A stretch of DNA of 64,000 nucleotides from Deltaproteobacteria bacterium HGW-Deltaproteobacteria-19 (lineage in GTDB: Bacteria > Desulfobacterota > Syntrophia > Syntrophales > PHBD01): NCBI GenBank assembly GCA_002841865.1, contig PHBD01000011.1:62001-126000 (forward strand), in the 5' to 3' direction. The position numbers and the translations under genes are program-made. This document shows positions 8,216 to 38,800 of the stretch, in pieces; the stretch's first letter is position 1; the number at the start of each line of letters is the position of its first letter. Below the pieces are notes generated by a model, which did not search any database, was not told the origin of the DNA, and saw only the letters and a program-made list of their open reading frames with translations.

Positions 8216-9370
8216 ATGGATTTCAGACTGACGGAAGAACAGGAAGTAATCAGGGATACAATCCGCCGGTTCATCGTTCGGGAATGCACCCGGGATGCGG
8301 CCCGGGAGGCGGATGGAAAAGGGGACTTTCCGGAAAAGCTGTACCGCCCCCTTGCCGACAACGGGTTCTGCGGTCTCGTGGTACCCGAGATGTACGGCGG
8401 AGGAGGCCGGAACGTCCTGGCGGCGGCAGTCATCATCGAGGAGCTGTCGGCTGTCTACCCGGCCCTGGCAGGTGCCTTCGCGGCCTGCGCCCTCGGGGGA
8501 GGAAAGAACCTGAGCGATCTGGGCAGCCCGGGGCAGAGGGAACGCCATCTGCCGACCGTTGTCGACGGATCCGCACTGTTTGCCGGTGCCATCCTGGAGC
8601 CGGATGCAGGTTACGGCCGGTTTGCCGTCGGAATGACGGCCACCCCGAAGGGGGACGGATTCCTGCTCAGCGGAGCGAAAAAGTTTGTCCGCCTGGCCGG
8701 TCGGGCCACCACGATCCTGACCCTGGCCAAAACAAACTCCGGGAACTCTCCCCGGGATGGACTTTCCTTCTTCCTGGTGGACGCGAAGAGCCCGGGAGTA
8801 ACGGCCGGGGCGACGAATCTGGTCGGGACTGCAAGCCTCGGTATCGGTGAGGTCCGGTTCGAGAACGTCACCGTTTCCCGGGAGGACGTCCTGGGGGGGG
8901 CGGAAGGTCTGAATCAGGGCTATAAGCAGTGGGAAGTGCTCCAGGAAGCGGAGCATCTGGAGGTTGCCGCCTGCGGCCTGGGGCTTGCCCAGGGAGCGTA
9001 CGACTACGCCGTTCAGTACGCGAGGGAGCGGGTCCAGTTCGGCCGTCCCATCATTGCCTTCAGCGCCGTGAAAGACATGCTTGTAGACATGGCCGTGCGC
9101 ATCCGGTCAACCCGTCTCGTCACTCTCCAGGCCGCCTGCCTCGCGGACGAGGAAAAGCGCTGCGCCGTGGAAGCGATGACGGCGCGGATCCTGGCCGTGG
9201 AGACGGCCCGGAAGGCCTCGATGGACGGAGTGCAGGTTCTCGGGGGATACGGGTACACGATGGAATACGACGCCCAGCGCTATGTGCGGGACGCCATGGT
9301 CCTCCTCGGCGGGGCAAGTCCGCAGGAGATGCTCCGGGAAGACCTCGGGGAGCTCCTGGGGCTGGGTTGA
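8216..9370 (+). CDS. Acyl-CoA dehydrogenase
   Basis: 384 residues. The N-terminal helical domain begins DFRLTEEQEVIRDTIRRF. The C-terminal half shows GLAQGAYDYAVQYARERVQFGRPI and the classic QVLGGYGYTMEYDAQRYVRDA block. The loop that usually reads T(E)PxAGSD is degenerate here (ILEPDAGYGRF), so substrate or ETF handling may differ from the 1397-2539 paralogue. It is FAD-dependent and oxidises acyl-CoA at C2-C3. A GAAAGGGAGTTCAAG site precedes the ATG. It is the last gene before a 250-bp gap and the third ligase. Confidence 0.9.
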   Translation: MDFRLTEEQEVIRDTIRRFIVRECTRDAAREADGKGDFPEKLYRPLADNGFCGLVVPEMYGGGGRNVLAAAVIIEELSAVYPALAGAFAACALGGGKNLSDLGSPGQRERHLPTVVDGSALFAGAILEPDAGYGRFAVGMTATPKGDGFLLSGAKKFVRLAGRATTILTLAKTNSGNSPRDGLSFFLVDAKSPGVTAGATNLVGTASLGIGEVRFENVTVSREDVLGGAEGLNQGYKQWEVLQEAEHLEVAACGLGLAQGAYDYAVQYARERVQFGRPIIAFSAVKDMLVDMAVRIRSTRLVTLQAACLADEEKRCAVEAMTARILAVETARKASMDGVQVLGGYGYTMEYDAQRYVRDAMVLLGGASPQEMLREDLGELLGLG

Positions 9371-9621
9371 CTCCGGAGGAACGAAGTCTTTTGATCCGCC
9401 CGCAATCACGGATTATTCATCTCCATCCTGCGGGAAGAAGGTTACACCAGCGACCATAATTGCCTGATGCCGGTTGACGGACGGCAAAGGCGGGGACCCC
9501 GGGTCCCGGGCGCCATCCCTCCCGGATGGCGTTGACGGAGAAGTGTTCCCTGTGCACGTCCGGATCGGTCCGGGCGGCGAGGGGAGCATCGAATCCCCGG
9601 GAAAACGAGAAAGGAGAGCAG

Positions 9622-11373
9622 ATGGCGAATCAGAATTTCACCCGCGTGGATGAGTCGAAACCCTGGCTGCAGGCCGCGGCGGGATGGCCCGACAAGGTTC
9701 CGAAGAACATCGATTTCCCCCGGATCACCCTTTACGAGATGCTGGCGGCGTCGGCGGCGAAATACAGCGACTGCAAGGCGGCCTGGTTCCTGGACTCCTT
9801 CATGACGTACGGAGAGATCCTGGGCCACGTGGACGCCTTCGCCCAGAGCCTCCGCAAGCTGGGCTTGAGGAAGGGCGACGTGGTCGCCCTGATCCTGCCG
9901 AGCTGCTTCCAGTACGTCATTGCCTACTATGCCTGCGCCAAGCTGGGAGTCATCGTGACGGGCATCAACCCCACCTATAAGCCGGGCGAGATCCTCCACC
10001 AGCTGAACATCACGGGGGCGCGGACGCTGATCTTCCTGGATGCCCTCTACGAGCCGCTGCTCAAACCCATCGAGCAGGATCTCCACATCCACCACTGGAT
10101 CAAGACGAACGTGGCCGACCTTCTCAAGCTGGCCGACTGGAAGAAGTGGATGGCCAAGAAGCTCAAGAAGATCCCCACCGGCCCCGTGCCTTCCGAATCC
10201 CTTTGTTTCCTCGACCTCCTGAAGGCGAAGCCGGAGCCGCTCCGGGTGACCGTTGCTCCGGACGACGTGGCCACCTATATCATGACTGGCGGCACAACGG
10301 GCGTTCCGAAGGCGGCGGTGTTGAGCCATTACAACTGCCTGTGCAACGCCATCCAGGTGGGCGCCTGGATGTGGACCATGGTTCCCGGGGCCTGCATGGT
10401 AGGCATCCTGCCCCTGTTCCACTCCTTCGGGATGACGGCCATCATGAACACGGTCTTGTACTGCGGGATGTGGATGATGCTCTTTCCGCGCCCGCCGGAG
10501 ACGGAGGTGCTGGTCAAGACGATCTGCGAGATCGCCCCGGACGACCAGACCTATTTCCCCGGTGCGGAGGTGATGTTCCAGCGGATCGCCGATTTCCCGG
10601 ATGTCGGCAAATACACGCTTTCAAAGAAACTCTACGGTTGCATCTCCGGGGCCGGGCCCCTGCATCGGAACGTCAAGGAGCGGTTCGAGAAGCTGACTGG
10701 GGCGCGACTGATCGAGGGCTATGGCCTCTCGGAGGCTTCCCCGGTAGTGTCCGGAGGGCCCATCAGCGATGTGGACACGACGGGCACGATCGGATTGGCC
10801 CTCCCCGGCCTCCAGTGGAAGATCGTCGACATGTTCACCGGTGACCGGGAAATGCCGGTGGGGGAAAGCGGCGAATTGATCATGACGGGCCCCACGGTCA
10901 TGCAGGGATACCTCAACAATCCGGCTGAGACCGCCGACACGGTCCGCGTCCGGGAGGACGGCCTGCGCTGGCTCTACACCGGGGACATCGGATTCATGGA
11001 TGCACACGGCCGGGTAACCCTGAACGACCGGAAGAAGCAGCTCATCAAGGTGAAGGGCTACTCCGTGTTCCCCACCGAAGTGGAGCAGCTCATGGGAGCC
11101 CACGAAGGAATCCTGGAGGTGGCCGTGGCGGGCCTGCCGGACCCGGAGACGGGAGAGGCCATCAAGGCCTGGGTGGTCCTCAAGGACGAATGGGCTGGCA
11201 AGGTCACGGTAGAGGAGCTGAAGGCCTGGTGCAAGGCCAACATGACGCATTACAAGGCACCGAAGCACGTCGAGTTCATCAAGGAGATCCCGAAGACCCT
11301 GGTGGGGAAGGTAATGCGCCGGGAGTTGCAGGAAAATGACCCGCTCTACAAGGCCAAGCACGCGAAGGCCTGA
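9622..11373 (+). CDS. Long-chain acyl-CoA synthetase (AMP-forming)
   Basis: 583 residues from the ATG at 9622, which has a textbook GAAAGGAGAGCAG site; an upstream in-frame ATG at 9526 has none. Motifs: YIMTGGTTGVPKAAVLSHYN, EGYGLSEASP, YTGDIGFMDAHGRV, DRKKQLIKVKGYSVFP and a C-terminal KTLVGKVMRREL. Together with the ligases at 2755 and 6569 this gives three acyl-CoA synthetases within 9 kb, which suits an organism living on fatty or aromatic acids. The gene is followed by a 160-bp gap and then a convergent regulator gene. Confidence 0.92.
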   Translation: MANQNFTRVDESKPWLQAAAGWPDKVPKNIDFPRITLYEMLAASAAKYSDCKAAWFLDSFMTYGEILGHVDAFAQSLRKLGLRKGDVVALILPSCFQYVIAYYACAKLGVIVTGINPTYKPGEILHQLNITGARTLIFLDALYEPLLKPIEQDLHIHHWIKTNVADLLKLADWKKWMAKKLKKIPTGPVPSESLCFLDLLKAKPEPLRVTVAPDDVATYIMTGGTTGVPKAAVLSHYNCLCNAIQVGAWMWTMVPGACMVGILPLFHSFGMTAIMNTVLYCGMWMMLFPRPPETEVLVKTICEIAPDDQTYFPGAEVMFQRIADFPDVGKYTLSKKLYGCISGAGPLHRNVKERFEKLTGARLIEGYGLSEASPVVSGGPISDVDTTGTIGLALPGLQWKIVDMFTGDREMPVGESGELIMTGPTVMQGYLNNPAETADTVRVREDGLRWLYTGDIGFMDAHGRVTLNDRKKQLIKVKGYSVFPTEVEQLMGAHEGILEVAVAGLPDPETGEAIKAWVVLKDEWAGKVTVEELKAWCKANMTHYKAPKHVEFIKEIPKTLVGKVMRRELQENDPLYKAKHAKA

Positions 11374-11536
11374 ATCGGGGAGGGCTTTTCGCTGACCGGG
11401 AGATGGCCTGCGGATGAGCCGCGGGTCATCCCCCTGATCACAAAGATTCCATACCGAAGGCGGGCCGTGGTCCGTGTTCCGACCCCCCCTCCAAACCGGA
11501 GCCGCCGCGGTCTGCCACCATTCCTCCGGATTCCCG

Positions 11537-14500
11537 TCAGGACGGGGTTTCGGGCCTCCGGATTCCCAGTTTCTTCATCCGGAAGGCAAGGGTCGACGGG
11601 GGCAGCTCCAGGAGCTCCGCCGCCCCGCCCTTTCCCCGGACCTTCCAGTTCGTCTTCTGCAGCGCCCAGAGAACGTGCCGCCGCTCGTTGTCCATCAGGC
11701 TCACCCCGTTGCCCGGGGGCGGCGTCTCGGAAAAGCGCGACCCCAGCTCGGGCACCCGGAAAACGGGACCGGGATGGAGGATCGTTCCCCGTTCGATGAT
11801 GTTTTCCATCTCCCGCACGTTCCCGGGCCATTCGTAGTCCAGAAGCTTCTCCATCTCCGCTTCGGGGATCTTGTTGAAATCCTTGCCCCGCTTCTGGGCG
11901 TAGATCTTGAGAAAGTGGAAAGCCAGGAGGGGAATGTCTTCCCGGCGTTCCCGCAGGGGAGGCACGTAGATGGGGAAAACGGCGAGGCGATAATACAGGT
12001 CCGGGCGGAATTTCTGGGTCTTCACGTCCAACTCCAGGTTCCGGTTCGTTGCCACCAGGAGACGGAAATCGGAGCGGATGGTCTCGCTGCCGCCGACGCG
12101 CTCGAACTCCCGGGTCTGGAGAACCCGGAGCAGGCGCACCTGAAGATCCAGGCTGATCTCGCCGATCTCGTCGAGGAAGAGCGTTCCACCGTCGGCCAGC
12201 TCGAAACGGCCGAGGCGCCGGCGGATCGCCCCGGTGAAGGCCCCCTTCTCGTGGCCGAAGAGCTCGCTGGGAATCAGGCTTTCCGGCAGGGCGCTGCAGT
12301 TCACCTTGATGAAGGGCTTGTCCCGCCGGGTGCTGTGGCGGTGGATGGCCCGCGCCACGAGTTCCTTTCCCACGCCGGTCTCACCGATGATCATCACCGT
12401 CGCGTCCGTCCCGGTGACCTGGTCGATCTGGGCAAGAACACGGCGAATCCCCGGACTCTCTCCGATGATGTCTTCGAAGTGCAGGTTCTGGAGATGCTCT
12501 TCCTTGTAGTAGAGGTTTTCTTCGCTCAACTTGCGGTTGAGACGCTGGATCTCCTCGTAGGCCCGGGCGTTGTCCAGGGCGAAGGCCGCCAGGGCCGCGA
12601 AATAGGACAGGAGGTCCAGGTCCGATTCCCGGAAGGCGCTGGAGAGAAGCCGGTTGTCGTGATAGAGGACCCCGACGGTCTTGTCCCGGAGAATCATGGG
12701 CACGCAGATCCGGGACCGGATCACATCGGACTCGGGGCCGCTCCCTTCCCTGGGGGTTCCGTCGGTGAGGATCCGTCCCTTTCCCGCCCGGGCCACCTCC
12801 TCGATTATTTTCAGGGACGAGGCGAACGAGCGGTGGACCACCTGCTCCGAGGTCAGGTTTTTCGATGCCCGCAGGATCGGCCGCGGTGTGCCCTCCTCTT
12901 CTTCGAGGAGAAAAATGGCGCTCCGCTCGGCGCCGGTGATCCGGTTCAGGGTCGTAAGGATGTGCTGGACAAGGTCCCGGTTGTCCCGGATTGTGACGAC
13001 CTTCTGGCCCAGGTTCAGGATCTCCTTCAGGAGCGATTCCCCGGCGGGCCGGTCCCCGACCAGCATCCGGAGTTCGTCGGGAATGAGTTTGTCATTGAAC
13101 GCGTCCAGGGTTTCCGTGGCCGTGGCGGTGAGTTCCCTGGCCGCTTCCCTGTCTCCGCCGGCCAGGTACTGGCGGGCCAGCTCCAGCCTCGATTTCGCCA
13201 ACTCGATCTGCTGACCCGATTCCTCAAGGCTGGCAATGGAGTCCTGGAGAGACCGGATCACGTCTTCCCGGGGACGGCCCTCCCGCTCCCACTGCTGAGC
13301 CTGGAAACGGTAGGCGACGCCCTTGAGGAAGACGTTGTGGCCGCAGATCATGCCCTGGATGTCCTTGTCGAGGCAGAGTCCCTCCGAAACAGGGATCTCT
13401 CCCCTCTCCATGGCGGCGCATAGCTCCAGGAGGTACGGGTAAAGGTACACGGTCGTGTGGACCTTCCGGGTGTGGTGGAGGAATTCCCGGAGGTTCTGGA
13501 GGGACTGCTCCGTGTCTCCCTTGAGGTAGTACGCATAGGCCAGGGACATCTTGCCGGTGATCCACACCCAGTCGTTGTGGGCGCGCTTGGCCATCTTTGC
13601 GGAGTCTTCCAGGTACTGGATGGCCTCGTCCACCCGGCCGATCTCCAGCATGACGTTGCCGATGTTTCCCTCCGTGTAGGCCGCCAGGTACAGGTCTCCC
13701 TTGCCCAGTCCATGGTTCCGGAGGGCGTCGAGCATTCCCAGGCCCTGGGTCACCTGGCCGATCTGGGCGTAACAGTAGCCCACCGTCATGACCGCCAGCA
13801 GGGGAAAGCCTCCCTGGGGGTACCGCTCGATGTCCGGGACGGCTTTTTCGTACATCCGGACCGCCTCCCGGAAACGACCCTGCCAGAAAAGGAAGAAGGC
13901 GCTGAAGGTGGTCGCCGAATGCAGCAGTCGCGGATCGTTCACCTCCCGGGCCAGGGCCCATCCCTCCTCGAAATGCTTGAGGGCGCTGTCGTACCGGGAA
14001 CGGAGCCACTCGTTCTTGGCCATGTGCATCTTCAGGAGGGCCCGGGCTCGATCGGCCTTCCAACGGGTTGCCTTTTCCAGGGCCGACTCGAGGATGGAGA
14101 GGACCTTCATCGTGTCGTGCCGCGCCGTGGAGATCTTGGAGTACTTGATGGCCGTCTCGCTGAAGAGCCCATCCGCCTCCCGCCCCGACAGGGCGGCGAG
14201 ATCCTCGATGGCCTTGCTGTAACACTGGAGGGCTTCTTCGGGACGGAAGGCCTCGAGATGGAGATCCCCGGCCTTGATCAGGTAGCGGCACCGGTTGGCG
14301 TCGTTGAGGATGTGGATCAGGTGGTGGGCGACGGCGTGGGCCTTCTCCTCGTTGTCCGGAAGCTGCCGCATGAGGATGTCGGCGATGTAGCCGTGGAGCT
14401 GCTTCTCCTCCCGGGGATCGAGGCTCGACCGGAGGCGCTTGCGTTTCTTGTCGCTCGCGAATCCGTAATATCCGGGCTCTTTCCGCACCAGGCTGCCGTC

Positions 14501-16091: not shown

Positions 16092-16395
16092 TCAGCCCGT
16101 CTTCTTTCCCCTTCCGGCGGGCTTCATGGCCGCTTCCTGGACCTCCCGGATGTTGAAGAAGGAGGAGTTCCAGACCGCCACGTAGTCCAGTCCTTCCTCG
16201 ACGCTGTGGTTCTCCATGAAGTTCAGGAGCCGTTTGGATCCCTTCACGGCGGACTGCGGGTTGGCGGCGATCTCCGCCGCCAGGTTCAGGGATCGCTCCA
16301 GGAGGCTCTACGGGGTGTCGCAGACTTCGCTGAGCAGGCCCATTCGGAGGCACTCGTTGGCGGTGAAATCACGGGCCGTAAAGGCCATGATCCTT
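16092..16395 (-). pseudogene. Enoyl-CoA hydratase remnant, C-terminal piece, cut by the island
   Basis: Read on the minus strand, the piece begins MAFTARDFTANECLRMGLLSE, a crotonase C-terminal half, and ends EAAMKPAGRGKKTG before a TGA at 16092-16094. An in-frame TAG at 16308-16310 interrupts it after SEVCDTP. The matching upstream piece lies about 10 kb away at 26332-26433, reading ADMGSLNRLPRIIGQGNAR. Joining the two at the shared CCTT restores a continuous crotonase sequence (GQGNARIMAFTARD). The gene was therefore split by the island. The stop codon and the missing N-terminus show it was non-functional, before or after that event. Confidence 0.85.
16392..16395. repeat. Left border direct repeat (CCTT) of the island
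   Basis: The sequence reads CATGAT-CCTT-CAATTAG at the left edge. The same four bases occur at the right edge (26328-26331). Crotonase coding sequence continues from one copy to the other if everything between is removed. This may be a target duplication or the crossover core of a site-specific recombinase. Four bases alone would be weak; the restored reading frame is what supports it. Confidence 0.65.
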
Positions 16396-16688
16396 CAATT
16401 AGTATTGAACAGGTTCAAATTGGGCAAAGAGCATCCATATCTTTTCGTTATGAATGATTTAGTTGACCCATTTTTCAGAAGAGCCTCAATTTCAGGCCCA
16501 TAGTGATCCAACTTGCTCTTTCCTGGCCCCTTCGGGCGTCCTAATTTAATTCCAACCGCCTTTCTAGCCCTCAATGCTTTCTTTGTTCGAGAACTGATTA
16601 AATCCTTCTCAATTTCTGCAGTGATACTAAATACCATTGCCATTACTTTCGATTGAATACTGCCGTTTAATTCCCAATTTCCTTCTCC
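16395..16688 (-). pseudogene. Serine recombinase (resolvase/invertase family), C-terminal remnant
   Basis: The open frame reads GNWELNGSIQSKVMAMVFS, then ITAEIEKDLISSRTKKALRA and RKAVGIKLGRPKG, the hallmark helix E and arm region of small serine recombinases (Pin/Hin/resolvase type). A short helix-turn-helix, FITKRYGCSLPNL, follows. The catalytic N-terminal domain with the active Ser is absent: a TAA closes the frame upstream at 16689-16691. The stop codon lies within a base or two of the left island border, so the remnant marks the element's edge. Only about 98 codons remain, against roughly 180-200 in intact enzymes, so it is unlikely to work alone. Confidence 0.8.
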
Positions 16689-17282
16689 TTATAAATGAAT
16701 TTCAACGTTTATGTTGAGATAATTTTTGCTTGGTAAAATGATTGTATTCACTTAGTAAACATGGAGATTGTTGATGCTTCTTGGGCGGGGATTAATCTTT
16801 AAGATCTTTTTTGACTTATGTTCATAAGAATGCATTATTATTAATAATCGTCATACTCAGAGGCACCTCAATTATACAAGGAACGAATAGTTATGGAGAG
16901 AGTGAATGAGAAGTCGATTACCATTTCCATCAATCACAAAAACTTCTTGACAATTCGATAATAATCCTAATAGTTCGTAGATGTTTACACATTGTATCGG
17001 ATACATGACTACTCTCTTGACAGTATTAAAGGGGAGGGAATGTGTTTGTAACAAGAATGTTATTTCTTAGAGTCTTCTATTCGCAACTAGGCAGATCGTT
17101 ATCATTGATCCGAACTATGTTGCATTCCTATCCATTTACCATGAAACCGAACCTCCTTGATCAACAGAGGAAAGCTCTACACTCACGTTATTACAACCTT
17201 CGCGTTAAACAAACCAATCCCATTGATAATCCAATATGTGAGGATTATTTCATGTAAGGTGTTATTTAGATTGCCAGTATCA
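16689..17282. other. AT-rich leader of the primase-RT gene, no convincing gene
   Basis: About 590 bp without a supported coding region. It is strongly AT-rich. Visible elements: a CTTATG-TT-CATAAG hairpin at about 16815-16828, an ATTATTAATAAT palindrome just after it, and two TTGACA boxes (16947-16952 and 17017-17022) that could be -35 elements, though neither has a good -10 at normal spacing. A weak GTG-started 71-codon frame (17042-17257) follows GGGGAGGG but resembles nothing I know. Because several defence reverse transcriptases and all retrons use an RNA encoded beside the RT, this leader is the natural place to look for a template RNA. Confidence 0.5.
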
Positions 17283-20200
17283 ATGATCATGCTGAAAGGG
17301 GAAAAGGTGAATACAGATCTGCAACGCGCTACAAAGGAACTCGCTGCTCGAGCAAAACTAATTGATGTAGCTCGCCTCCTTGGGATGCACATATCATACC
17401 CGCGTTCAGGGAATCCCCAAGTGCTTTGTCCATTTCACGATGATCATACCCCTTCTATGTCGTTATATGACGATCATTATCACTGCTTCGCATGTAATGC
17501 GCACGGTAATGTTTTCGAACTTATCAAGGCGATACACAAGGTTCAGTTTATAGATGCCCGAAAGTGGCTTGCTGACAAGTACGGGGTTCGTCTTCCGACA
17601 CACGAATATACTGGCGACCGTCCTCAAAACGCGCGAGCTTTAGGACTAAATCTGGCGTTCCAACATTATAAGCAGCAAAGAAGCCTTGATACGACATGTC
17701 TTGACAATTGGGCTAAATTACGTGGTTTTGATAGTAGATTTCTCAAATCAGCTGAAGTTTTCGGTGCAAAAGGGAACAAATTATCACGCCAGTTAAAATC
17801 AGCCGAGAATTTTGAAGCCTTAGACGGGCTTGTGGAAGCAGGGCTTCTTTATAAACCCAAGTCAGATCTTCCGATCGCTCATCCGTACCAAGACATCTAT
17901 TATACTGATCGTATTATTTTCACGATCAGAACTGCGCAGGGTGATATTGCGGGCTTTGCAGGGCGCTCCGTGGGAGACGATAAGCCGAAGTATTTGTTCT
18001 CCAAGGGATTGCCAAAAGGAGAGCTTCTTTATCGATTAGATATGGTCAGAAACAAGCTAATCTCAGTCCTGAAAGCCAAAATCACCGAGAGTGTCCATCT
18101 TTATGTAGTTGAGGGTCTACTTGATGCGTTACGGCTAGAGTCACTTGGTCTCTCTGCCGTAGCCATCCTTGGCAGTAGGATGACAGAATCTCAAACGGGA
18201 CTTTTACTTGATTTAGCTAAGGATTTAAACCGTCTGAACAAACAGTTGATCGTTCACCTCTTCTTGGACTCTGACGAAGCAGGACGAAAGGGGACAACAG
18301 CAGCCATACCGTCCTTATGGTCTGCAGCGAGGGAATCTCACTTTGTCCTTGATATCATCAAACCAAAGTCACGGGAGAATGATATCGCGCATGATCCTGA
18401 TGAGTATTTACGCGACGTTTTTCGTTTCGGGGATTCATCTTCTTTTTTGCAAGACTCCGTTGTGTCAGGTCTTAGTTTTCTGGTGTCAGAACTCTTGGAT
18501 TGTCAACCATCGGATATAGATGTCGTGTGGAATACTATTTCGCAAACTGAGCGATTGGCCTGCATGAGGAGCATCAATTATATTGGTGACAGTAAGTTTT
18601 GGAAATTCACTTTTGCTAGGTTATTGCCATCTTCAGTATTCCTAGGTGCTAATAAACATGATGAACCAGCATGGCTCCAGGATCTTAAGAACTTTTTACT
18701 GTTTGAAGAACCCGATGCAAGGATCCCATATAGACGTCCTGTTGCCGATATTGCAGAAGTAACTCCACCATTGGGCAAGGAACGTCTTTCTCACGCGCTT
18801 AAACTCGCAACAAGTAGCCTTCAAAGGCGGGACATGCCGGTCGATGAAGGTTCATGGCTTCGCATGAATCTGGCGAGCGACGTTTTCGAAGAGCACTTCA
18901 AGAGAATGCTGAGCTTGGGATCATCTCATAATGAGCCTTTTGCTGCCGCAAAGATCCCAAAGCCTAATGGTGAATTCCGACTCAAGGCACTTCCATGTCA
19001 TGAAGACTTGGTACTTCAGCAGTATATGATGAACGCTCTGCTTCGCGACAATCCGCAAAGCCATCGGTTTCTAGAATGCATTCCTGCCGTGCGTTTCAGC
19101 CGCTATAAGCACCGAAACCGATCAAGAATAACAGGTCTTGTTAAACATGAAGGTGACGAAGACATCGCAAGCTTTGCTTATCAGATTGACATGGATGTTC
19201 TCGAGGGACGAACGCCGCCCGGAAATACCGGCATGTTCCGGCACTATGCTGAGTGCTGGCGAGAATTTATCAATTATCTCGAATCAAAGCTAACTAGCAT
19301 CGGGGTGAAGGATATTCACGTTATGCGACTGGATATCCGTAAATACTATGATCTGCTGCCTCTCTTCACTGTTAGGGATGCATTACTCGAACCACTGAAA
19401 AAAGCGCTAGGTTCCCTTGAAAATGCAACGCAGTGTGCACCTGAGTTTCGTCCAGACGTCACTGACCCAGAAGAGCGTGCTCGGCTAATTGTTGACTGGC
19501 TGTGTAAACAGAGTTTTGGTTATCGGTACTACAACCCATCGGATGGTTTGCCCCGTGACTACGAATGGAAGGACCGCGGAGTGCCGCAGGGTCCTGATCT
19601 ATCGGCATACCTTGCAAACATTGCCCTTTTCCCATTAGACAAAACCATTAAGGAGCATATCAATAGTTTGAACGCAAGCATTGGAAATGGCCAAGATCAG
19701 AACGTTCGTGCGGTATACGCCCGGTACGTGGATGATCTGATCCTGATCACGGATTCTTCGGAAAATCTAACTAAATTACGAATCCATATTGAAAACGAAC
19801 TCTCGAAATTAGGGCTCGAACTTAACAAAAAAACAGCACCCCTAACCTCGATGACCCAAGCTGATGTTCGACAGTGGTTGACTGATGAACGTGGAGGTCT
19901 TGGTGTTTCGGCACCGTCACGTACTCCCACTAACGCCTTTGAGACATTGGTAAATGATTGCATTGAGAGCGGGCATGTCGATCGAAGTGACTCCCTTCTC
20001 GTACTGCATAGTCCCTGGATGGACGACCCAGACACAGAAGCTGAAGATGTAATCAACGGTGTTAAGGCTTCAAGGAATAGCCAAGAACTACGATACGGCG
20101 ACCTTTGTTGTGCCGCTAAACATATCTGGCGTGTTGTTATAGAAAAGGCACCTAATCGCGCTTCACTCGACTTGTTAGCCAAGACATTTTATGACTATTG

Positions 20201-23200
20201 GAATAAGACAGGCAGACCCACTAAATCATCGGATGATGAAGTTACGGCATTCCATGATGTGTGCGCGATATTAGCGGCATTGGACGGGATTGAACGTTTC
20301 CTTTGTAGCAGAACCGACAGAAACCCGACCTTTTCAATGTCGGCGCGTCAAAAGAATGAAGAATGGCGGACGAGGTTGGCACGGGCCGTTATATCGGGGG
20401 ACATCCAAACCATAAAAACACTTGCAGGAAAACGAGAGACAAGCTTTGCTGTGGAACAAGGTATTCGTCACATGCTCGAACTCAAACATCTGTCTCTGAT
20501 CAGGACTTCATGCCTCGTTTTGCCTAAAGATACTACTCTCGTAAATAATTCATTTTATAACCATCAAGGGCGGTTGCCCCTGCCACCTCCAATCATGCGA
20601 CACTTGTGTTCAGTCGCTGCGGTTTGTAAGAATATAGCTATTTTAGAGCAGGCGACTATGATTCCCGATGCTAGAGAGACCGCTTCAGGGCCAGTTCTTC
20701 TACTCCATAATGCAATCTCTCGTCTTCAGATAGGTGACGCGTACAGCAACACAATCGATCCAATGGATGGGCTGAAGGGGCAGTTCGACAGTGTTCAAAG
20801 AGAATTTTCAGTATTCAATGATTCAGAATTCGCCACGCAAACTTTGAAACTATGGCTACCTCACAACAAATCAAACCAGAGCACACACAATCAACAGTTT
20901 CTTCAACCGGCTCTTCGTTCCTTCATCAACATTGCCAAGAAGAATCGAATGGCCGATTATCTTGGGAAAAGACCCGATTTTGGCAGCGCATTGCTCGATG
21001 GAGCGGATCCTATTCCGGTGCCACCTGGAATCGATTATCCAGGCATAATCGGTTGGAATAGAGAGAAAGATACATTTGTTCGAGTGGACTTTGTAGATAA
21101 TGAGACTACGTTCGGAGATCTGGATGGGATAACATGGGAAGCCTTTGATCGTGACGACACGAATGGAAGAGAATGGACACGCCTACGAGCTGCAGCAAAA
21201 GGATGGCAACCACTCATTGATATAGTCCCACTGGCCAAGGATATCTGCGTGCATGAAAACGCGCCTAGATTCTGCGCATCACTTTTTCTTGGCCTTCAGA
21301 AAGCATTGCACACGAACGAAGAAAACGTTGTGCCCTGTGCCGCACCGCATGTACTTGTGAGAGAGTTTAACAGAGAAAAGATGTCTTTTTCGGCTGTTGG
21401 AGTGTTGGGGTATCAATTATCCAAAAATTCCTTCGATACTCTGGCCTTCATTCGTCGTGGCTGGTCTTTGGCACAGGAAAGTGTTTCGGCTCAGTATGCG
21501 GACATTTGGCGCATTGGTAGTACTGTAGCTGATATCACTGGCTTTCTCGAATACTGTCATGCCGATAGCAGTATGCGCTTAACAAATCGTTCATATGTGT
21601 TCGATTGTGGACTTACCCCAACTTGGGCGAGGGAGGCGCTTTTCCGAACAGCGTTTTTTAGACTACAAGGAAAAAAAGTACGGCCCGGTATTCTTCGTAT
21701 TGATCAATCCTCAAATCTCCCTATGACCGTTGCACGTGCGGTGAAACAGTTGAACGGTTTTCCAAGTCGTTCTGAAGGCATAGGGATAGACATTCCGCAA
21801 CTGAGATACGTCCTCAGTTCTTCCGCTGAATCAAGAGCCATGGCGTTGCGCATGGCAAATGATGCAGTCTACGGTGGGCCAGGGGGCGCAGCATTCTTCT
21901 TGATGCACTTTGCGTCGCACTATTTCAGAGACGACGATGTCTTGGCGAGTCTTCTGCCAAATCCTCCCGAAACAATGGGCACTATGTCATTGCCCAAACG
22001 GCGGGCTGTTTTGGGTTACCACGAGCTAGCGCGTCGAGTGGGCATGTTATTGGAGGACCCGCAGACGCTTCCTGACTTGAGCGGACTTGAAGCACTAGCA
22101 GTTGGTCTTCGGATACTTGCATTAACGGAAAACGTGAGAGCTCAAGTTCTTGAAAGACTTCATTTGTTATCTGATACAGATCTTCAGCCATTTGAGGAGT
22201 CGCTTGGTTTGGTCTCATTTGGGATCGACGCCCAGAGCGTGCTAATAGCTGAGGAAATAGAGCACCATCAGTCTGCATTGATCAAACGGCTCATCCAACT
22301 GAAACTAGGCTTACCCACCACATTCGCGGGTTTAGATAAAATCACACCTCTTGGTTGGTGGGCATTGTTAATTGCAATGTGCGGATTCAGCGAGATTCCG
22401 TTTGGGAAAGCGACCATTGGAAACGTTGATCGCTCCAAATGCGAAACAATAACTAAAGCGCTAATCCTTTGGGATAATCATTCTAAAGACTTCCCTTGGG
22501 AAGGGCTTTTATCGACGATTAAACAATGGACGGAGGACTTTACACACAAAGCGTTTGAGATATTGGCTGAGTTGGATCATGCCCTTGGTGTTGAGTTGTT
22601 GCCAAAAGAAAATCTAATGTTCACCTATAGCCCAAATTACCGAAAAGGGATTGTTAATTTTTCTCTGCCAACTGGTCGCTTGACTCTTGATTCATGGCGT
22701 TTTCTTTTCGCCTCAACAGGAAGCGCGATTCGAGATGTTGAGTTCATTAGAGATCCTAACGACAAAAACATAAAAATCAGTTTCTGGACCGAAACAAGAG
22801 TGGGCGGTGAGTTGGTTGCAATTAGCGCTATGTCGACGGCATTGGCTACACTTGCGGGTATCCACGGAAAATCACAACCAACAATGCTAGAGGCTACAAC
22901 GTCGGTAGATGTTTGCGTGGCCGATGCGTCTCCAGCGAAAGCGCATTCTTTAGAAACTATAACAGAAGTAATCAGTCTTCCTGATAGTTTGACCGTTCAG
23001 ACAGAAATAGCCTCTGGCGTCGGAGATGCAGTATCCGTTGCATCAGCAATCTCGAATAGATGGAAGGATGTCATCTCAAGGATGCAACATGACTCTTGGA
23101 AGGCACGACAAGAAGATACGAGAGATGTTGCTAGTCATGTTCGAGTTGCCCTTCTCCAACTGGAAATTGATTCCAGTTATGAGCATCCTGTTTCGGAATT

Positions 23201-24740
23201 GTGCTGTAAGTCTAGGGGGACATCAGATGCGGACGGTGAAATTGGAAAGTTAATTGAGATCGTTCAAAAGGATATGACGAAATGGGATGAGGCTGCGACC
23301 AATGCTATGATATCCAAGACTCGCAGTTGTGCAGAGTACCGTCGTCGTAAAATTTTGGAAGAAGTGTTGAAAGCTTGTAACAGTTTCAAAGTGGATATCC
23401 TTGTCCTTCCCGAATACTCTGTTCGACCTGAGACCGTAGAATGGATTGCGAAAGCTCTTCCATCATTCGCTCGCAATATATCTGTGTGGGCAGGAACGTT
23501 CCGGAAACCTCCTTATATGATTGGAGAATGTGCTGACATTTTTGCAGACGTTCCTGACTGGGCTGCTCCACTTCCAGTCATATTTCCGGGTGATCCCTCA
23601 ACAAGTCCTGGGGATATAAAGGTAACGAGATGGAAAAAATATCCTGCCGCTGGTCTCGGTGAAGTATTTAATCCTTATAAAAGTGAAATTCAACCCATAT
23701 CCTGGATGTTAAAGAATGAGCCAGGATTTCGAGATCACCGCGATCTAATCTGTGAACTAATCTGTTCTGAAATATTTTTACTCTCCAGCCCGTCGAATCT
23801 TCTTTCACTCGGTGTTCGGCTTCGTGCCTTAAGTCACAAATTCGGGCTGCCCGGTATGGATTCTCCGAAAGGTGTTATGGAAGATGAGGTTCTTCCAGAC
23901 TGTAAGTCCTTTTCGCTTTTTACATCGTTGCAGACACCCAGAAAGTACCGGCGGCATCCCATTATTATTGTTCCTGCATTGACTACACGCCCAGTTGATT
24001 GGGCTGTAACTGGGCAAGCCGGTTATTTAGCCTCTGGCCTCACTACGGTGTTCTGTAATGCAGTCCATGCGAACGGCAAAGGACAGAGTTGTTTTATTGG
24101 GACGGACTGTTGGGATAATAGCCGCAGGAAAACGAAGTTAGACAGGCATAATCCCCAATTGGGACCATATCACGGTGTGATACCTGGCATCTATACTCAG
24201 ACCAGTGAAGATCGAGGCTGGTTAAGCGGAACGGAACAGGCTCTGGTGATCGCCGACATTGATCCAATCCTTTCCTGCGGTGGTGACCCCAGTCCTGAAT
24301 CATTAGGATCTTCATTAACACTTGTAGCACACCTCCCCATTATCGAATCTTTGCAAGTTGATTTGGACAAGAAGACTAATGGATGTCGTTGTTCTTGGGA
24401 ACATAATGATTTAAGTCAAGATTTCGATGCATTAATGCAATCCATGGGTGAGCGTTTGAGTGCCGTATCAGGTCATACTTCGATAGATGATCATCAACCC
24501 GAAATTCTTGAGGCAGAACTTCTCAAACTAGCAAATATGGCAAGGTTACGAGAAAGCGACTCAGATTGGCTAAAGAAAAGGGCTAATGCGTATCGTAATC
24601 ATCATGCAGGCGACCCAGTAAGATGGCCGCCACCCGTCGCCCTTGACTGGTTATGTATTGAACTTGACTATGATATGGAGGATATGCCGATTATTGGTAT
24701 GCCGGAGTACAGAAAGGATCCCGGTGAAATGAATACATAG
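17283..24740 (+). CDS. DnaG-like primase / reverse transcriptase / nitrilase-fold fusion protein
   Basis: About 2,485 residues from ATG 17283 (ATG 17289, or GTG 17307 behind AAAGGGGA, are alternatives; numbers here use 17283). Residues 49-71 are a CHC2 zinc finger (Cys49, His52, Cys68, Cys71). Residues about 190-340 are a DnaG-type core and Toprim: RIIFTIR, GDDKPKYL, VVEGLLDAL (Glu277), FLDSDEAGRKG (Asp329, Asp331). About 555-910 is a reverse transcriptase: KIPKPNGEFR, motif A MRLDIRKYYD (Asp684), motif B GVPQGPDLSAYLAN (from 766), motif C RYVDDLIL (Asp817, Asp818). About 920-1950 is unassigned. About 1955-2390 is nitrilase-like: VLPEYS (Glu2044), TRWKKYP (Lys2118/2119), LICSEIF (Cys2161). 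RT plus nitrilase recalls DRT1/UG1 antiphage RTs. An antiviral role is inference. Confidence 0.93.
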   Translation: MIMLKGEKVNTDLQRATKELAARAKLIDVARLLGMHISYPRSGNPQVLCPFHDDHTPSMSLYDDHYHCFACNAHGNVFELIKAIHKVQFIDARKWLADKYGVRLPTHEYTGDRPQNARALGLNLAFQHYKQQRSLDTTCLDNWAKLRGFDSRFLKSAEVFGAKGNKLSRQLKSAENFEALDGLVEAGLLYKPKSDLPIAHPYQDIYYTDRIIFTIRTAQGDIAGFAGRSVGDDKPKYLFSKGLPKGELLYRLDMVRNKLISVLKAKITESVHLYVVEGLLDALRLESLGLSAVAILGSRMTESQTGLLLDLAKDLNRLNKQLIVHLFLDSDEAGRKGTTAAIPSLWSAARESHFVLDIIKPKSRENDIAHDPDEYLRDVFRFGDSSSFLQDSVVSGLSFLVSELLDCQPSDIDVVWNTISQTERLACMRSINYIGDSKFWKFTFARLLPSSVFLGANKHDEPAWLQDLKNFLLFEEPDARIPYRRPVADIAEVTPPLGKERLSHALKLATSSLQRRDMPVDEGSWLRMNLASDVFEEHFKRMLSLGSSHNEPFAAAKIPKPNGEFRLKALPCHEDLVLQQYMMNALLRDNPQSHRFLECIPAVRFSRYKHRNRSRITGLVKHEGDEDIASFAYQIDMDVLEGRTPPGNTGMFRHYAECWREFINYLESKLTSIGVKDIHVMRLDIRKYYDLLPLFTVRDALLEPLKKALGSLENATQCAPEFRPDVTDPEERARLIVDWLCKQSFGYRYYNPSDGLPRDYEWKDRGVPQGPDLSAYLANIALFPLDKTIKEHINSLNASIGNGQDQNVRAVYARYVDDLILITDSSENLTKLRIHIENELSKLGLELNKKTAPLTSMTQADVRQWLTDERGGLGVSAPSRTPTNAFETLVNDCIESGHVDRSDSLLVLHSPWMDDPDTEAEDVINGVKASRNSQELRYGDLCCAAKHIWRVVIEKAPNRASLDLLAKTFYDYWNKTGRPTKSSDDEVTAFHDVCAILAALDGIERFLCSRTDRNPTFSMSARQKNEEWRTRLARAVISGDIQTIKTLAGKRETSFAVEQGIRHMLELKHLSLIRTSCLVLPKDTTLVNNSFYNHQGRLPLPPPIMRHLCSVAAVCKNIAILEQATMIPDARETASGPVLLLHNAISRLQIGDAYSNTIDPMDGLKGQFDSVQREFSVFNDSEFATQTLKLWLPHNKSNQSTHNQQFLQPALRSFINIAKKNRMADYLGKRPDFGSALLDGADPIPVPPGIDYPGIIGWNREKDTFVRVDFVDNETTFGDLDGITWEAFDRDDTNGREWTRLRAAAKGWQPLIDIVPLAKDICVHENAPRFCASLFLGLQKALHTNEENVVPCAAPHVLVREFNREKMSFSAVGVLGYQLSKNSFDTLAFIRRGWSLAQESVSAQYADIWRIGSTVADITGFLEYCHADSSMRLTNRSYVFDCGLTPTWAREALFRTAFFRLQGKKVRPGILRIDQSSNLPMTVARAVKQLNGFPSRSEGIGIDIPQLRYVLSSSAESRAMALRMANDAVYGGPGGAAFFLMHFASHYFRDDDVLASLLPNPPETMGTMSLPKRRAVLGYHELARRVGMLLEDPQTLPDLSGLEALAVGLRILALTENVRAQVLERLHLLSDTDLQPFEESLGLVSFGIDAQSVLIAEEIEHHQSALIKRLIQLKLGLPTTFAGLDKITPLGWWALLIAMCGFSEIPFGKATIGNVDRSKCETITKALILWDNHSKDFPWEGLLSTIKQWTEDFTHKAFEILAELDHALGVELLPKENLMFTYSPNYRKGIVNFSLPTGRLTLDSWRFLFASTGSAIRDVEFIRDPNDKNIKISFWTETRVGGELVAISAMSTALATLAGIHGKSQPTMLEATTSVDVCVADASPAKAHSLETITEVISLPDSLTVQTEIASGVGDAVSVASAISNRWKDVISRMQHDSWKARQEDTRDVASHVRVALLQLEIDSSYEHPVSELCCKSRGTSDADGEIGKLIEIVQKDMTKWDEAATNAMISKTRSCAEYRRRKILEEVLKACNSFKVDILVLPEYSVRPETVEWIAKALPSFARNISVWAGTFRKPPYMIGECADIFADVPDWAAPLPVIFPGDPSTSPGDIKVTRWKKYPAAGLGEVFNPYKSEIQPISWMLKNEPGFRDHRDLICELICSEIFLLSSPSNLLSLGVRLRALSHKFGLPGMDSPKGVMEDEVLPDCKSFSLFTSLQTPRKYRRHPIIIVPALTTRPVDWAVTGQAGYLASGLTTVFCNAVHANGKGQSCFIGTDCWDNSRRKTKLDRHNPQLGPYHGVIPGIYTQTSEDRGWLSGTEQALVIADIDPILSCGGDPSPESLGSSLTLVAHLPIIESLQVDLDKKTNGCRCSWEHNDLSQDFDALMQSMGERLSAVSGHTSIDDHQPEILEAELLKLANMARLRESDSDWLKKRANAYRNHHAGDPVRWPPPVALDWLCIELDYDMEDMPIIGMPEYRKDPGEMNT

Positions 24741-24795
24741 GTTGCAATCTCTTAACAGGTTCGTCTGCAAAGGAACAAGATATTTACTCTGAAGC

Positions 24796-25656
24796 TGGAG
24801 TTGCCCCTGATTGACCGGACACTGCTCTAACTTAAGTTGTTTCCGCTGGTATTCCCGCGGTGACTTCATTTTCAACCCCTTGTGGGGGTGGTTTTCATTG
24901 TAATCCTCGAACCATGTCGGCAGTTGGGCCAGAACGGTCACGGCATCCGGAAGCGAGTTCATATGAACGTAATCCCGCTTGAAGGTCTTCACGAACGACT
25001 CCGCCATCCCGTTGGACTCGGGACTGTAAAACGGAGTCGTACAGACCTCCAGGCCCATCATACGGGCAAACCGTTGCGTTTCATGGGCCACGTAACCCGG
25101 CCCGTTGTCACTCAGCCACTGGATCGGCGCCGGAACTTTATCCACCAGGCCGAAACGAGCTTCAACGGCCTCCGCCATCAGGTCCCGGACCAGGTCTCCG
25201 GAGATGCCCCCGGTTGTGCCAACATAGCTCATAACCTCCCGGTCACAGCAGTCCAGGCTGAAGGCCACCCGGACCCGTTCTCCGTTCCAGCAGGCGATCT
25301 CGAAGGCATCCGAACACCAGCGGCGGTTGCTCCGGTTCATCCGGATTCCCTCCCTCGTGAAGACGGGCAGGCCGGCCCGTATACCTCTGAAGCAACAGCC
25401 CGTTCATCTTCATGAGCCGGTAGACCCGCTTGGCGTTCACCCTCGGACGATTCTCCCGCACCAGTTGGCGATTCAAAAGCGCCGTCACTCTCCGGTATCC
25501 ATATGTCAGCCGGTCATTGGTGATCCGGCGAATCAGGAACAGGTAGCCTTCGTCATCGGCCTTCCGGTAGTGACGCTTCCGGGATCCCTCTCCGTTCTTT
25601 CGTCTCTCGTATTGACGGGATCGGGAGACCTCCAGCGTGGATGCCACCGCCGTCAT
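24796..25656 (-). pseudogene. IS3-family transposase OrfB, frameshifted
   Basis: The N-terminal frame starts MTAVASTLEVSRSRQYERRK (25656) and carries the HTH_21-like region with YGYRRVTALLNR. Near 25340 a GAGGGAGGGA tandem GGGA repeat shifts the frame. The rve catalytic core continues in another frame from RMNRSNRRWCSDAF, with DDE residues in FSLDCCDREV, WLSDNGPGY and SPESNGMAESF. No stop lies in the left inverted repeat, so the second frame runs out of the element to 24651. With the frameshift the catalytic domain is separated from its start, so this copy should be inactive. Confidence 0.82.
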
Positions 25657-25693
25657 TGGGAATCGTCCTTCGGAAGCAACGGCACCCGCGAGA

Positions 25694-26029
25694 TCAGTTT
25701 TTTTCGCGGGCCATTCGGACGGCTTCCTTCAGGATCTCGTTCTCCAGGGTCTTCCGGCCCAGAATCCGTTCCAACTCCCGAATCCGCCGTTGCAGTTCCC
25801 TGGCCTCCGACAGCGGAACCACCCCTTCGCCGGCCTTCACCGCACAGAGGGCGCCGTCCTGCATCAAACGACGCCACCGGAACAACTGGTTCGGGTGGAT
25901 CCCGTACTTGCGGGCAACCGACGAGATGCTCATCCCCGGTTGCTCCGCCTCCTGGACCATCCCCCCCTTCTCGCCGGCAGGCCAGTGGCGCCTTCGCTGG
26001 ACCGACGTCATCACCTCTACCGGACTCAT
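25694..26029 (-). CDS. IS3-family transposase OrfA (helix-turn-helix)
   Basis: 111 residues starting SPVEVMTSVQRRRHWPAGEK. A transposase-8 helix-turn-helix (SISSVARKYGIHPNQLFRWR) is followed by a leucine-zipper-like RELQRRIRELERILGRKTLE, typical of IS2-like OrfA. It stops at MAREKN in a run of seven A. One more A would let the frame continue AREKKLISRVPLLP to a TGA overlapping the OrfB start (ATGA), as in relatives. The short version is therefore either a one-base deletion or relies on slippage at the A-run. A GAGGAGAGCG site precedes the ATG. Confidence 0.82.
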   Translation of the reverse strand: MSPVEVMTSVQRRRHWPAGEKGGMVQEAEQPGMSISSVARKYGIHPNQLFRWRRLMQDGALCAVKAGEGVVPLSEARELQRRIRELERILGRKTLENEILKEAVRMAREKN

Positions 26030-26156
26030 CGCTCTCCTCTTCTGCCTTGGTTGCAGTGCTAGCTCTACAGCTATTACTACAACTTATTCCCAGGGTGAAG
26101 AGTGTCCGGTCGAATAGGGGGCTACTTCAACTACATGTCATCACATTTTCTCGCAG

Positions 26157-26327
26157 ATGTTTTCCATTTCAACATTAGGGGGACTGAATCTTCCAAGGGA
26201 AAGATGGGATGAACCGTTGTTTAACAGGCCGCTGCAAGTTGTTGGTGAATTTCAAATGGACGTGAGCAGAATCGAGGCGGTCATAAGTGGTCTTAATCGT
26301 GACGAAATATTAAGCAAATCGAATGAG
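26157..26327 (+). other. Unassigned open frame at the island's right end
   Basis: From ATG 26157 the frame reads MFSISTLGGLNLPRERWDEP and LFNRPLQVVGEFQMDVSRIE for about 57 codons up to the island border, then continues meaninglessly into crotonase antisense. It is open upstream to the IS3 right end. Composition is island-like. I recognise no family. It may be the truncated start or middle of a gene that the border or the IS cut, or chance. It is the only candidate for a second island gene besides the giant one. Confidence 0.3.
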
Positions 26328-26331: not shown

Positions 26332-26433
26332 GCATTGCCCTGGCCGATGATCCGGGGAAGGCGGTTCAGGCTTCCCATATCCGCCACAATGACGATCCGC
26401 GCCTCCCGGAGGGAGATGACGGCATCCTTCAAT
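26332..26433 (-). pseudogene. Enoyl-CoA hydratase remnant, middle piece
   Basis: On the minus strand this reads LKDAVISLREARIVIVADMG and SLNRLPRIIGQGNAR, the crotonase stretch that normally lies around residues 125-160 (compare VGVIPGGGGTQRLPRLIG in the intact fusion at 4463). It abuts the stop codon of the DUF554 gene, so the N-terminal 120 or so residues are already missing: a deletion has joined DUF554 to mid-crotonase. The C-terminal piece is at 16092-16395. Confidence 0.8.
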
Positions 26434-35291: not shown

Positions 35292-35368
<77 letters not shown>

Positions 35369-35889: not shown

Positions 35890-38800
35890 ATGGATGTTCT
35901 TCATCTGCGGAATCGTGTGAGCCGAAACGTCTTTTTCCCGAGGCCGGGGAGTCGTCCGGGGGGGCAGATCCTTTGCGCCGTTCTCCTCTTGCTGGCCGGC
36001 ACGGTCATGACGGCGCACGCCGCCACGAAGCTCGTTCCCGACACAAATTACTCCGATATTGTCATGGACCTTTCTGGCGACAGTTACTACGCGGACGATA
36101 ATCCTTACACAAATCAAGGAATCATTAACGTCTACAGCACACTGGACAACTACGGCACGTTTCGCAATGAGCCGGATGCCCTGCTGCGCAACTACGGCAC
36201 GCTGCGCAACGATACCGGCGCCACTCTGCACAACCGGTCGGGAGGCAGGCTGTTCAATGAATCAGGCGGTACGCTGATCAACAGTACGGGCGGTACACTG
36301 AACAACTCCGGCGAGTTCGTCAACAACGGCACGGTGACCAACTCCGGCGGGCTGGTCAACTCGAGCGATTTGACGAACAAGCTGCACGGGACGCTGAACA
36401 ACGGCTCCGGCGCCACGCTGACCAACGATGCAACCGGGACGCTGAACAACAACGGTACACTGAACAATTCCGGCACGCTGATCAACCTCGGCACCTTCGG
36501 CGGCTCGGGAACCGTCGTCAACGACGGGGGCACCATCGACAATTCCGGCACGTCCATGTCCATCACGACCCTGGTCGTGAATACGGGCAAGACGGGCGTC
36601 GTCACCGGGTCAACCTTGACCTCCGTGACAACGGGCAATGTAAGCGGTACCCTGAACCACACGGGGAGCGGCGGCATCTCCTTTACCACCCTCAACCTGG
36701 ACGGCGGCGTCTTCAACAACAACGGCAGCGGCGGTGTGAGTATCGGAACCGCAGCCGTTGCCGACGGCTACACGGGCACCATCGGGGGCACGGGGCCCAT
36801 CGGGCTGACCGCGGCCGATGTGGACGGAGCACTCAACGTGAGCGCCGTTCTCTCCGGTCCGGGCTCCCTCACGAAGACAGGCACGGGCACGCTGACGCTA
36901 TCCGGCGACAACACCTACACCGGGGGCACGAACATCAATGATGGAACAATCAGCGTGGGCAGCGACGGCAATCTCGGCAACGCTTCAGGAGGGCTTACCT
37001 TCGGCGGCGGCACCCTCAAGGTGACAAACAGTTTTACGACGAACCGGTCCGTTGCGCTGGACAGCGGCGGCGGCACCTTCGACACGAACGGCAACAGCCT
37101 GACTCTGTCCGGGGTCGCCTCCGGCACGGGCTCGCTTCATAAAAGCGGCGACGGCACCCTCACGCTCACCAGAGCCAACACCTACACCGGGGGCACGACC
37201 GTGAGCACGGGAACGCTCGCCCTCTCGGGGGCCGGTACCCTGGGCGATGCGGCAGGGACGACAACGGTGTCCGGAGGCACCCTCGATCTGGGCACGACCA
37301 CCCAGACGCAGACGGAACTCAGGCAGTCCGGCGGAACGGTGCAGAACGGAACCATGAATGTAACGACCTATCAGATGACCGGCGGGACGCTTTCGTCCGA
37401 CGCAACGGTCTGTGCCGCATCGAGCTTTGACATGCAGGCCGGCACCGTGAACGGCGTTCTCTCCGGTACGGGCTCTCTCACCAAGACGGGCCCGGGCGAA
37501 CTGACCCTGTCCGGCACGAATACCTACACCGGTGGAACGAACATCAACGGCGGGACCGTCAGCGTGGGCAGAGACGAAAGTCTGGGCGACGCTTCGGGGG
37601 CACTTGCCTTCGACGGCGGCATCCTCAAGGCGACCGGCAGCTTTACGATGGGCCGGTCCGTCACACTGGGCAGCGGTGGCGGCACCATCGACACGAACGG
37701 CAACGAGCTGACCATAAACGGGGATATCTCGGGTACGGGCTCCCTCACCAAAGAAGACGGCGGCAAGCTCATTCTCACCGGCACGAACACCTACACCGGC
37801 GGCACGACCGTCAACGGCGGGACCGTCAGCGTGAGCAGAGACGAAAATCTCGGAGATGCCTCGGGGGCGCTCACCTTCGGCGGCGGCACCCTCGAGGTGA
37901 CAAGCGGCTTTACGATGAACCGGTCCGTTCAGCTGAACAGCGGCGGCGGCACCATCGACACGAACGGCGGCGACCTGACGATAACCGGGGATATCGCGGG
38001 TATGGGCTCCCTCACCAAAGAGGACGGCGGCAAACTCATTCTCACCGGCACGAGCACCTACACCGGCGGCACGACCGTCAACGGGGGCATTCTGCAGGGC
38101 GATGCGGCGAGCCTTCAGGGCAGCATCACCAACAACAGCCAGGTAATCTTCGACCAGGGATCGACGGGCACGTATGCCGGGAACATGAGCGGAACGGGCT
38201 CCCTCGTCAAGGAAGGCGACGGTACCCTCGTCCTTGCCGGCGTCAATACCTATACGGGGGGAACCTCTGTAAATCGCGGCGCCCTAGCCGTGGAAGGCAG
38301 CATCACGGGCGATCTCGCCGTCGGCGTATCGGGCACCCTCATGGGCAACGGCACGATCACCGGCGACACCGTGAACTCCGGCACCCTCGCCCCGGGGAAC
38401 TCCATCGGAACCCTGACGATTGCCGGCGACTACACCCACAACGCCGGCGCCGTCTATGCCGTGGAGGTCGATGCGGCCGGTCGGTCGGACAGGCTCGTCG
38501 TCACCGGGACAGCCACCCTGAACGGCGGGACGGTATCCGTTCTTGCCGGGTCAGGGCAGTATTTCATGAATACGACCTACACGATCCTCACCGCCGGGAG
38601 CGTTGTGGGTACGTTTGACAGCGTCACGAGCAACCTGGCCTTTCTCACCCCGTCACTGAGCTATGACGCCGCGAACGTGTACCTGCTCTTGACCAGGAAC
38701 TCCACCCGCTTCGCCGATGTGGCCCTCACCCCCAATCAGTACGCCGTTGCCTCGGCACTCGATCGCGGCACTCCATCCGCCGCCGGCGATATGGCCACGG

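Follow-up and report, generated by a model that had tools for sequence, protein, structure and literature searches.

The protein encoded at positions 17283-24740 of the window (the whole 64,000-nucleotide stretch of DNA that was analysed) is an intact, well-conserved member of UG29, a known but apparently uncharacterised group. It joins a DnaG-type primase, a reverse transcriptase (RT), a long middle region and a nitrilase-fold domain in one chain. We consider it probable that this is a single-gene UG29 defence RT carried on an acquired insert, in which primer-started DNA synthesis gates the nitrilase effector in abortive infection.

Translation of 17283-24740 on the forward strand gave 2,485 residues without a stop, in line with the single unbroken frame described in an earlier note on this DNA, and a chance or artefactual frame was ruled out by full-length homologues. 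The open frame reaches back to TTG 17157, and the start is uncertain among ATG 17283, ATG 17289 and GTG 17307, with a purine-rich AAGGGGAAAAG directly 5' of the last. All residues named in the earlier note were found in place (C49, H52, C68, C71, E277, D329 and D331; D684, GVPQG 766-770 and YVDD 815-818; E2044, K2118/K2119 and C2161). The four domains that it had claimed were recovered as well, three of them by Pfam (CHC2, 5e-17; Toprim_2, 1e-6, together with DNAG_N, 1e-7; RVT_1, 1.5e-10) and the nitrilase by profile-profile comparison. Single-sequence structure predictions were unusable, with pLDDT values of 33 and 37. The gene and its parts are as follows:

17283..24740 (+): UG29 gene, 2,485 aa; start ATG 17283 or GTG 17307, open from TTG 17157
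17352..17600 (+): CHC2 zinc finger, residues 24-106 (C49, H52, C68, C71); Pfam PF01807, 5e-17
17778..18416 (+): DnaG catalytic core, residues 166-378; TIGR01391, 1e-44; PDB 2au3, 6e-25
18903..20027 (+): reverse transcriptase, residues 541-915 (D684, GVPQG, YVDD 815-818); PF00078, 1.5e-10, motif alignment and tree
20028..23072 (+): residues 916-1930, middle region of about 1,000 aa; no known domain (Pfam), no hhalign match to DRT1 or UG6
23073..24437 (+): nitrilase-fold domain, residues 1931-2385 (E2044, K2118, C2161); hhalign probability 92%
24438..24737 (+): weakly conserved C-terminal tail, 12-25% identity

The earlier note did not recognise this architecture as a named one; it is already catalogued as UG29, a UG/Abi group. 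The PADLOC model RT_UG29 (PDLC03767) matched from end to end (residues 15-2478 on positions 4-2279 of 2280, 1,611 bits), the runner-up RT model being UG10_large at 61 bits, and the Drt1a profile scored 44.8 bits over the RT region only, short of a whole-protein DRT1 match. The UG classification is reportedly due to Mestre et al. 2022, as cited in PMC13275509, and a full-text literature search for UG29 gave no relevant paper.

A search for homologues with the same domain order returned two proteins, both encoded on plasmids (Sphingomonas aerolata plasmid unnamed3 and Polaromonas naphthalenivorans pPNAP05), with approximately 29-30% identity to the window protein and matched over most of their length. 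The three proteins share the same four-part order, with no structural difference between them. In a three-way alignment, identity to the window protein was 40-42% for CHC2, 37-41% for the RT, about 36% for the nitrilase and 30-32% for the primase core. The joining parts were lower, with 23% for the middle region, 20-25% for the linker and 12-25% for the tail. These values (30-42% for the modules versus 12-25% for the joining parts) indicate that the four catalytic modules are under stronger constraint, and the selection asserted in the earlier note is thereby borne out across three loci. Invariant in all three proteins were the zinc-finger residues C49, H52, C68 and C71, the basic-motif residues R210, R228 and P235-K236-Y237-L238, the six Toprim carboxylates, and E2044, K2118 and C2161.

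UG29 proved to be rare. Among 395 genomes of the phylum, 155 of the class and 41 relatives, it was matched in the window's own genome only, and 2 of 72,556 plasmid records carried it. Phage records gave primase-like matches only, none spanning 80% of the UG29 protein, and UG29 was not found in the viral contigs searched, nor in one sampled class with the RT profile (overlapping samples, without a positive control). A scan of genome contigs was swamped, through the CHC2 motif, by ordinary dnaG genes.

With regard to the primase, the features that define the DnaG type were all present, namely the CHC2 zinc finger, the basic motif (R210/R228/PK236YL) and the Toprim carboxylates (E277, D281, D329, D331, D371 and D373). 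Judged by its sequence, the module has all of the DnaG core, with CHC2, DNAG_N and the basic motif next to Toprim; one would not expect a nuclease with Toprim alone to retain PKYL. Among solved structures, the N-terminus matched the DnaG core 2au3 (6e-25). The NCBIfam dnaG model TIGR01391 covered residues 26-378 (1e-44) with a score below the equivalog cut-off, and the UG29 N-terminus is therefore classed as DnaG-like; the DnaG proper of the cell is encoded on another contig. Bacterial DnaG (e.g., 2au3) thus has the CHC2, basic motif and Toprim carboxylates in common with UG29, whereas UG29 shows no Pfam match to the helicase-binding C-terminal domain, the place of which is occupied by the RT. 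According to its citation in PMC13275509, retron-Eco2 provides a known RT-Toprim fusion effector; UG29 differs from it in having a whole DnaG core and in the nitrilase E/K/C residues kept in all members. Primase and RT are likewise combined in one chain in UG10/DRT7 PrimPol-RT, but there the primase is of the AEP/PrimPol type (PMC8934634), whereas that of UG29 is of the DnaG/Toprim type and is accompanied by a nitrilase. Among the PADLOC matches of the window protein, UG10 models ranked after UG29 and RTasDnaG-like.

UG/Abi defence RTs are recognised by an active YxDD palm and by not belonging to group II introns, and in UG29 the YVDD active site is intact. D684, Q769-G770 and Y815-V-D-D818 are invariant in the three homologues, as are Ser residues after the palm (e.g., S876); the Val and Pro positions of GVPQG vary. 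In trees of 27-28 RT domains, labelled according to PADLOC, UG29 formed its own clade with the two plasmid homologues (support 100/100), and a clade of DRT1, UG5 and UG6 excluded it (94/95, or 92/88 without the long branch). Constraining UG29 with DRT1/UG5/UG6 cost 2.2 log units and was not rejected (AU p = 0.17), a UG29+DRT3a clade gave AU p = 0.16, UG29+group II was borderline (AU p = 0.05), and UG29+UG6 alone was disfavoured (AU p = 0.03). Of the DRT1 likeness put forward in the earlier note, the resemblance to nitrilase-bearing defence RTs was upheld; in the best trees, the RT did not come out as a close relative of that of DRT1. A group II intron identity was weakly disfavoured by the above test, and no Pfam match to a maturase domain was observed in the protein. 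An ncRNA leader, as expected of a class 2 DRT or retron, did not show up: folding of the 433 nt upstream of UG29 was no better than that of shuffled sequences (z 0.11) and an Rfam search beside the gene gave no match, although a novel or unusual ncRNA may have escaped these searches.

The nitrilase gave no Pfam match in the UG29 protein, and the domain alone retrieved nothing among PDB sequences and, weakly, UG5-nitrilase (7e-4 over 70 residues). When the three UG29 nitrilase domains were compared by hhalign with 23 DRT1/UG5/UG6-type nitrilases, a probability of 92% and a score of 55.7 were obtained, compared to at most 19.3 for 60 column-shuffled profiles, 14.2 for a reversed profile and 15.9 for the UG29 middle region. 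In the joint alignment, E2044, K2118 and C2161 fell on columns that hold E, K and C in 23/23 of the defence-RT nitrilases, and a second Glu, E2127, fell on no invariant column. Given that K2119 is replaced by Arg in one of the two full-length homologues, the nitrilase lysine is K2118; from the Glu/Lys/Cys set of the earlier note, E2044, K2118 and C2161 were retained and K2119 was dropped. UG29 has a nitrilase-fold domain with an E-K-C set, as looked for in class 3 DRTs (an RT with a nitrilase or a phosphohydrolase). The DRT1-type nitrilase profile retrieved the DRT1 structure 9yfd at 7e-81. In other genomes, we noted a stand-alone DRT1-type nitrilase without an adjoining RT (L152:8761-9639, G985; RTasNitrilase, 4.5e-104), located within an apparent polysaccharide biosynthesis operon, and another split RT-nitrilase pair (L153:7094-11245, G1206), in which a UG5-like RT and the nitrilase have a gene each and a YhcG/DUF1016-like gene immediately precedes them.

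DRT1 (UG1; structure 9yfd) resembles UG29 in the succession of RT, long region and C-terminal nitrilase with matching E/K/C, but it has no primase module, is about half as long, and its RT is placed elsewhere in the best tree. Its middle region is not alignable with that of UG29 either: residues 916-1930 gave no Pfam match at E 10 and no hhalign match to DRT1 or UG6, and a low-confidence model (pLDDT 37) suggests that they may be mostly helical. As for the tail, residues 2389-2466 approximately match positions 460-532 of the PADLOC RTasDnaG-like profile. This profile (550 positions) matched the UG29 tail in addition to the primase (1e-31 for the tail of locus L085, 7e-10 for that of the window). 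Either UG29 proteins were among those used to build the profile, or the tail is also present in unfused DnaG-like partners.

A search for RT and dnaG families in the same genome revealed a second cluster on another contig (C35; locus L091, G000:C35:22000-41000, positions 8702-13955). It comprises a DnaG-like protein of 369 aa (RTasDnaG-like, 8e-83), an RT_UG6 of 1,076 aa that keeps FVDD (6e-253) and an RTasNitrilase of 310 aa (1e-95), encoded on AT-rich DNA by consecutive genes that overlap or directly adjoin one another. The kinds of parts and their order are those of the UG29 domains, which supports the notion that a DnaG-like primase, an RT and a nitrilase act together. This operon differs from UG29 in that its three genes are separate and nothing in it detectably corresponds to the 1,000-aa middle region, and the two RTs are weakly similar (hhalign probability 8.6%). 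A simple fusion of the UG6 operon as the origin of UG29 found no support in the RT tree (UG29+UG6, see above), and in the primase tree a joint clade gave AU p = 0.33. A SoFic-like Fic-domain gene lies near the UG6 cluster (L091:15393-16532, reverse strand).

On the basis of these data, the assignment of UG29 to the defence class appears well supported, with anti-phage activity as such suggested by the gene neighbourhood. The explanation favoured at the outset draws on the end-to-end RT_UG29 match, the intact active sites, the conservation of the modules, the three-gene cluster on C35 and the Lamassu and Avs4-like neighbours described below; the position of the UG29 RT outside DRT1/UG5/UG6 in the best trees and the long middle region that matches no domain count against it. 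In the proposed mechanism, the CHC2/DnaG module would bind single-stranded DNA, such as that of a phage replication fork, and synthesise a short primer, which the fused RT would extend. The nucleic acid product or the primer-template complex would then control oligomerisation of the chain and, with it, the activity of the C-terminal nitrilase-fold domain, which, once active, may hydrolyse an essential amide- or nitrile-bearing metabolite, so that the infected cell stops growing (abortive infection). That DNA synthesis should gate the nitrilase effector, and that both should be required, is carried over from DRT1, while the start of the RT product by the primase, the trigger and the nitrilase substrate are what we infer. 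To our knowledge, no dedicated DnaG primase starts DNA in the defence RTs studied to date.

In DRT1, template-free, protein-primed DNA synthesis activates a nitrilase that is restrained in filaments, abortive defence needs both the RT and the nitrilase active sites, and the trigger requires a phage ssDNA helicase (PMC13275509). DRT1, DRT5 and AbiK-type enzymes initiate on a protein residue without a template, and the class 3 and class 1 RTs characterised to date are protein-primed (PMC13275509). A primase is therefore not needed for that chemistry and may serve otherwise. The UG29 RT could thus be protein-primed and template-free as in DRT1, with the DnaG-like module as a sensor that binds ssDNA or mimics the host DnaG, in which case mimicry would catch the phage helicase or replisome parts. 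The helicase dependence of DRT1 and the invariant Ser residues after the UG29 palm are consistent with such a sensor. A mere sensor, however, would need neither the six Toprim carboxylates nor PKYL, all of which are invariant at about 29% identity. Since the DnaG polymerase residues, and not just the Toprim pair, are kept, we prefer primer synthesis to a role as sensor alone, which we regard as unlikely.

Within the preferred reading of primer-started synthesis, it is possible, if doubtful, that UG29 represents a first among defence enzymes: an RNA primer made by a DnaG-type primase would be extended by the RT fused to it, and the product would activate the nitrilase toxin of that chain. If so, UG29 and the UG6 operon of the same genome would be two separate assemblies of one three-part machine. 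The interest of the system lies in this candidate primase-RT-nitrilase coupling and in the presence of fused and unfused versions within one genome, the unfused one providing a natural comparison. With UG29, a single gene and three point mutants suffice to ask what initiates and what gates DNA synthesis in systems that carry a nitrilase.

The surroundings of the plasmid homologues bear on both the autonomy and the function of UG29. In Sphingomonas, the gene adjoins the Lamassu genes LmuC, LmuB and LmuA (5e-79 or better), and in Polaromonas its neighbours include a NACHT/Avs4-like gene (1.5e-14), a tyrosine recombinase and toxin-antitoxin genes. A conserved upstream partner was discarded, as the genes preceding UG29 in the two plasmids are unrelated; with UG29 as the only gene observed in all three loci, it may stand alone, and it appears to be a self-sufficient, single-gene system. 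Both close homologues being plasmid-borne, and primases being frequent plasmid genes, UG29 might instead serve, as primase plus polymerase, in the replication or upkeep of plasmids and other mobile elements and not in defence. We deem this highly improbable, given the RT and nitrilase modules like those of defence RTs, the Lamassu and Avs4-like neighbours, the rarity of UG29 even on plasmids, and the metabolic genes that surround the window gene, in whose vicinity no replication gene was identified. The Sphingomonas locus holds a complete Lamassu (LmuA/B/C), and the gene directly before UG29 there resembles the truncated start of a STAND-type defence ATPase; these features lie at L084:4764-9284 and L084:10895-11824.

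In the window, UG29 lies on an AT-rich insert, over which GC content drops from about 0.62 to 0.45 (16.4-24.6 kb). A same-genus genome aligned continuously up to 16394 and again from 26323; in the relative, the two flanks share 8 bp. The features of the insert are:

16395..26322: AT-rich insert carrying UG29, absent from the same-genus genome; GC about 0.45 versus 0.62
16390..16399 (+): direct repeat ATCCTTCAAT, left junction
26424..26433 (+): direct repeat ATCCTTCAAT, right copy, past a 104-bp host-gene piece
16395..16643 (-): serine recombinase C-terminal remnant (AEIEKDLISSRTKKALRARKAVGIKLGRPKGPGKS); family from motif, without profile search
24804..26120 (-): IS3-type insertion sequence with 20-bp inverted ends; rve, HTH_21 and inverted repeat

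The insert (9.9 kb) interrupts an enoyl-CoA hydratase gene (name read from the gene's sequence, without profile search) that is intact in the same-genus genome. Past the 104-bp host-gene fragment, the window lacks about 570 bp that the relative has; together with the ATCCTTCAAT repeats, this fragment and this loss point to more than one clean insertion. The mobile island of the earlier note was thus confirmed as an insert flanked by host sequence, while a complete mobility module of its own was not found in it, the IS3-type element, which starts 63 bp past the UG29 stop, and the recombinase remnant being all that was detected. Horizontal acquisition of the insert forms part of the explanation that we consider probable. 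The approximately 200 bp between the IS element and host sequence (26121-26322) resemble the 3' end of another coding gene, and further downstream, beyond tRNA-Met (35292-35368), the window encodes a large autotransporter with passenger-associated repeats (35890-39927).
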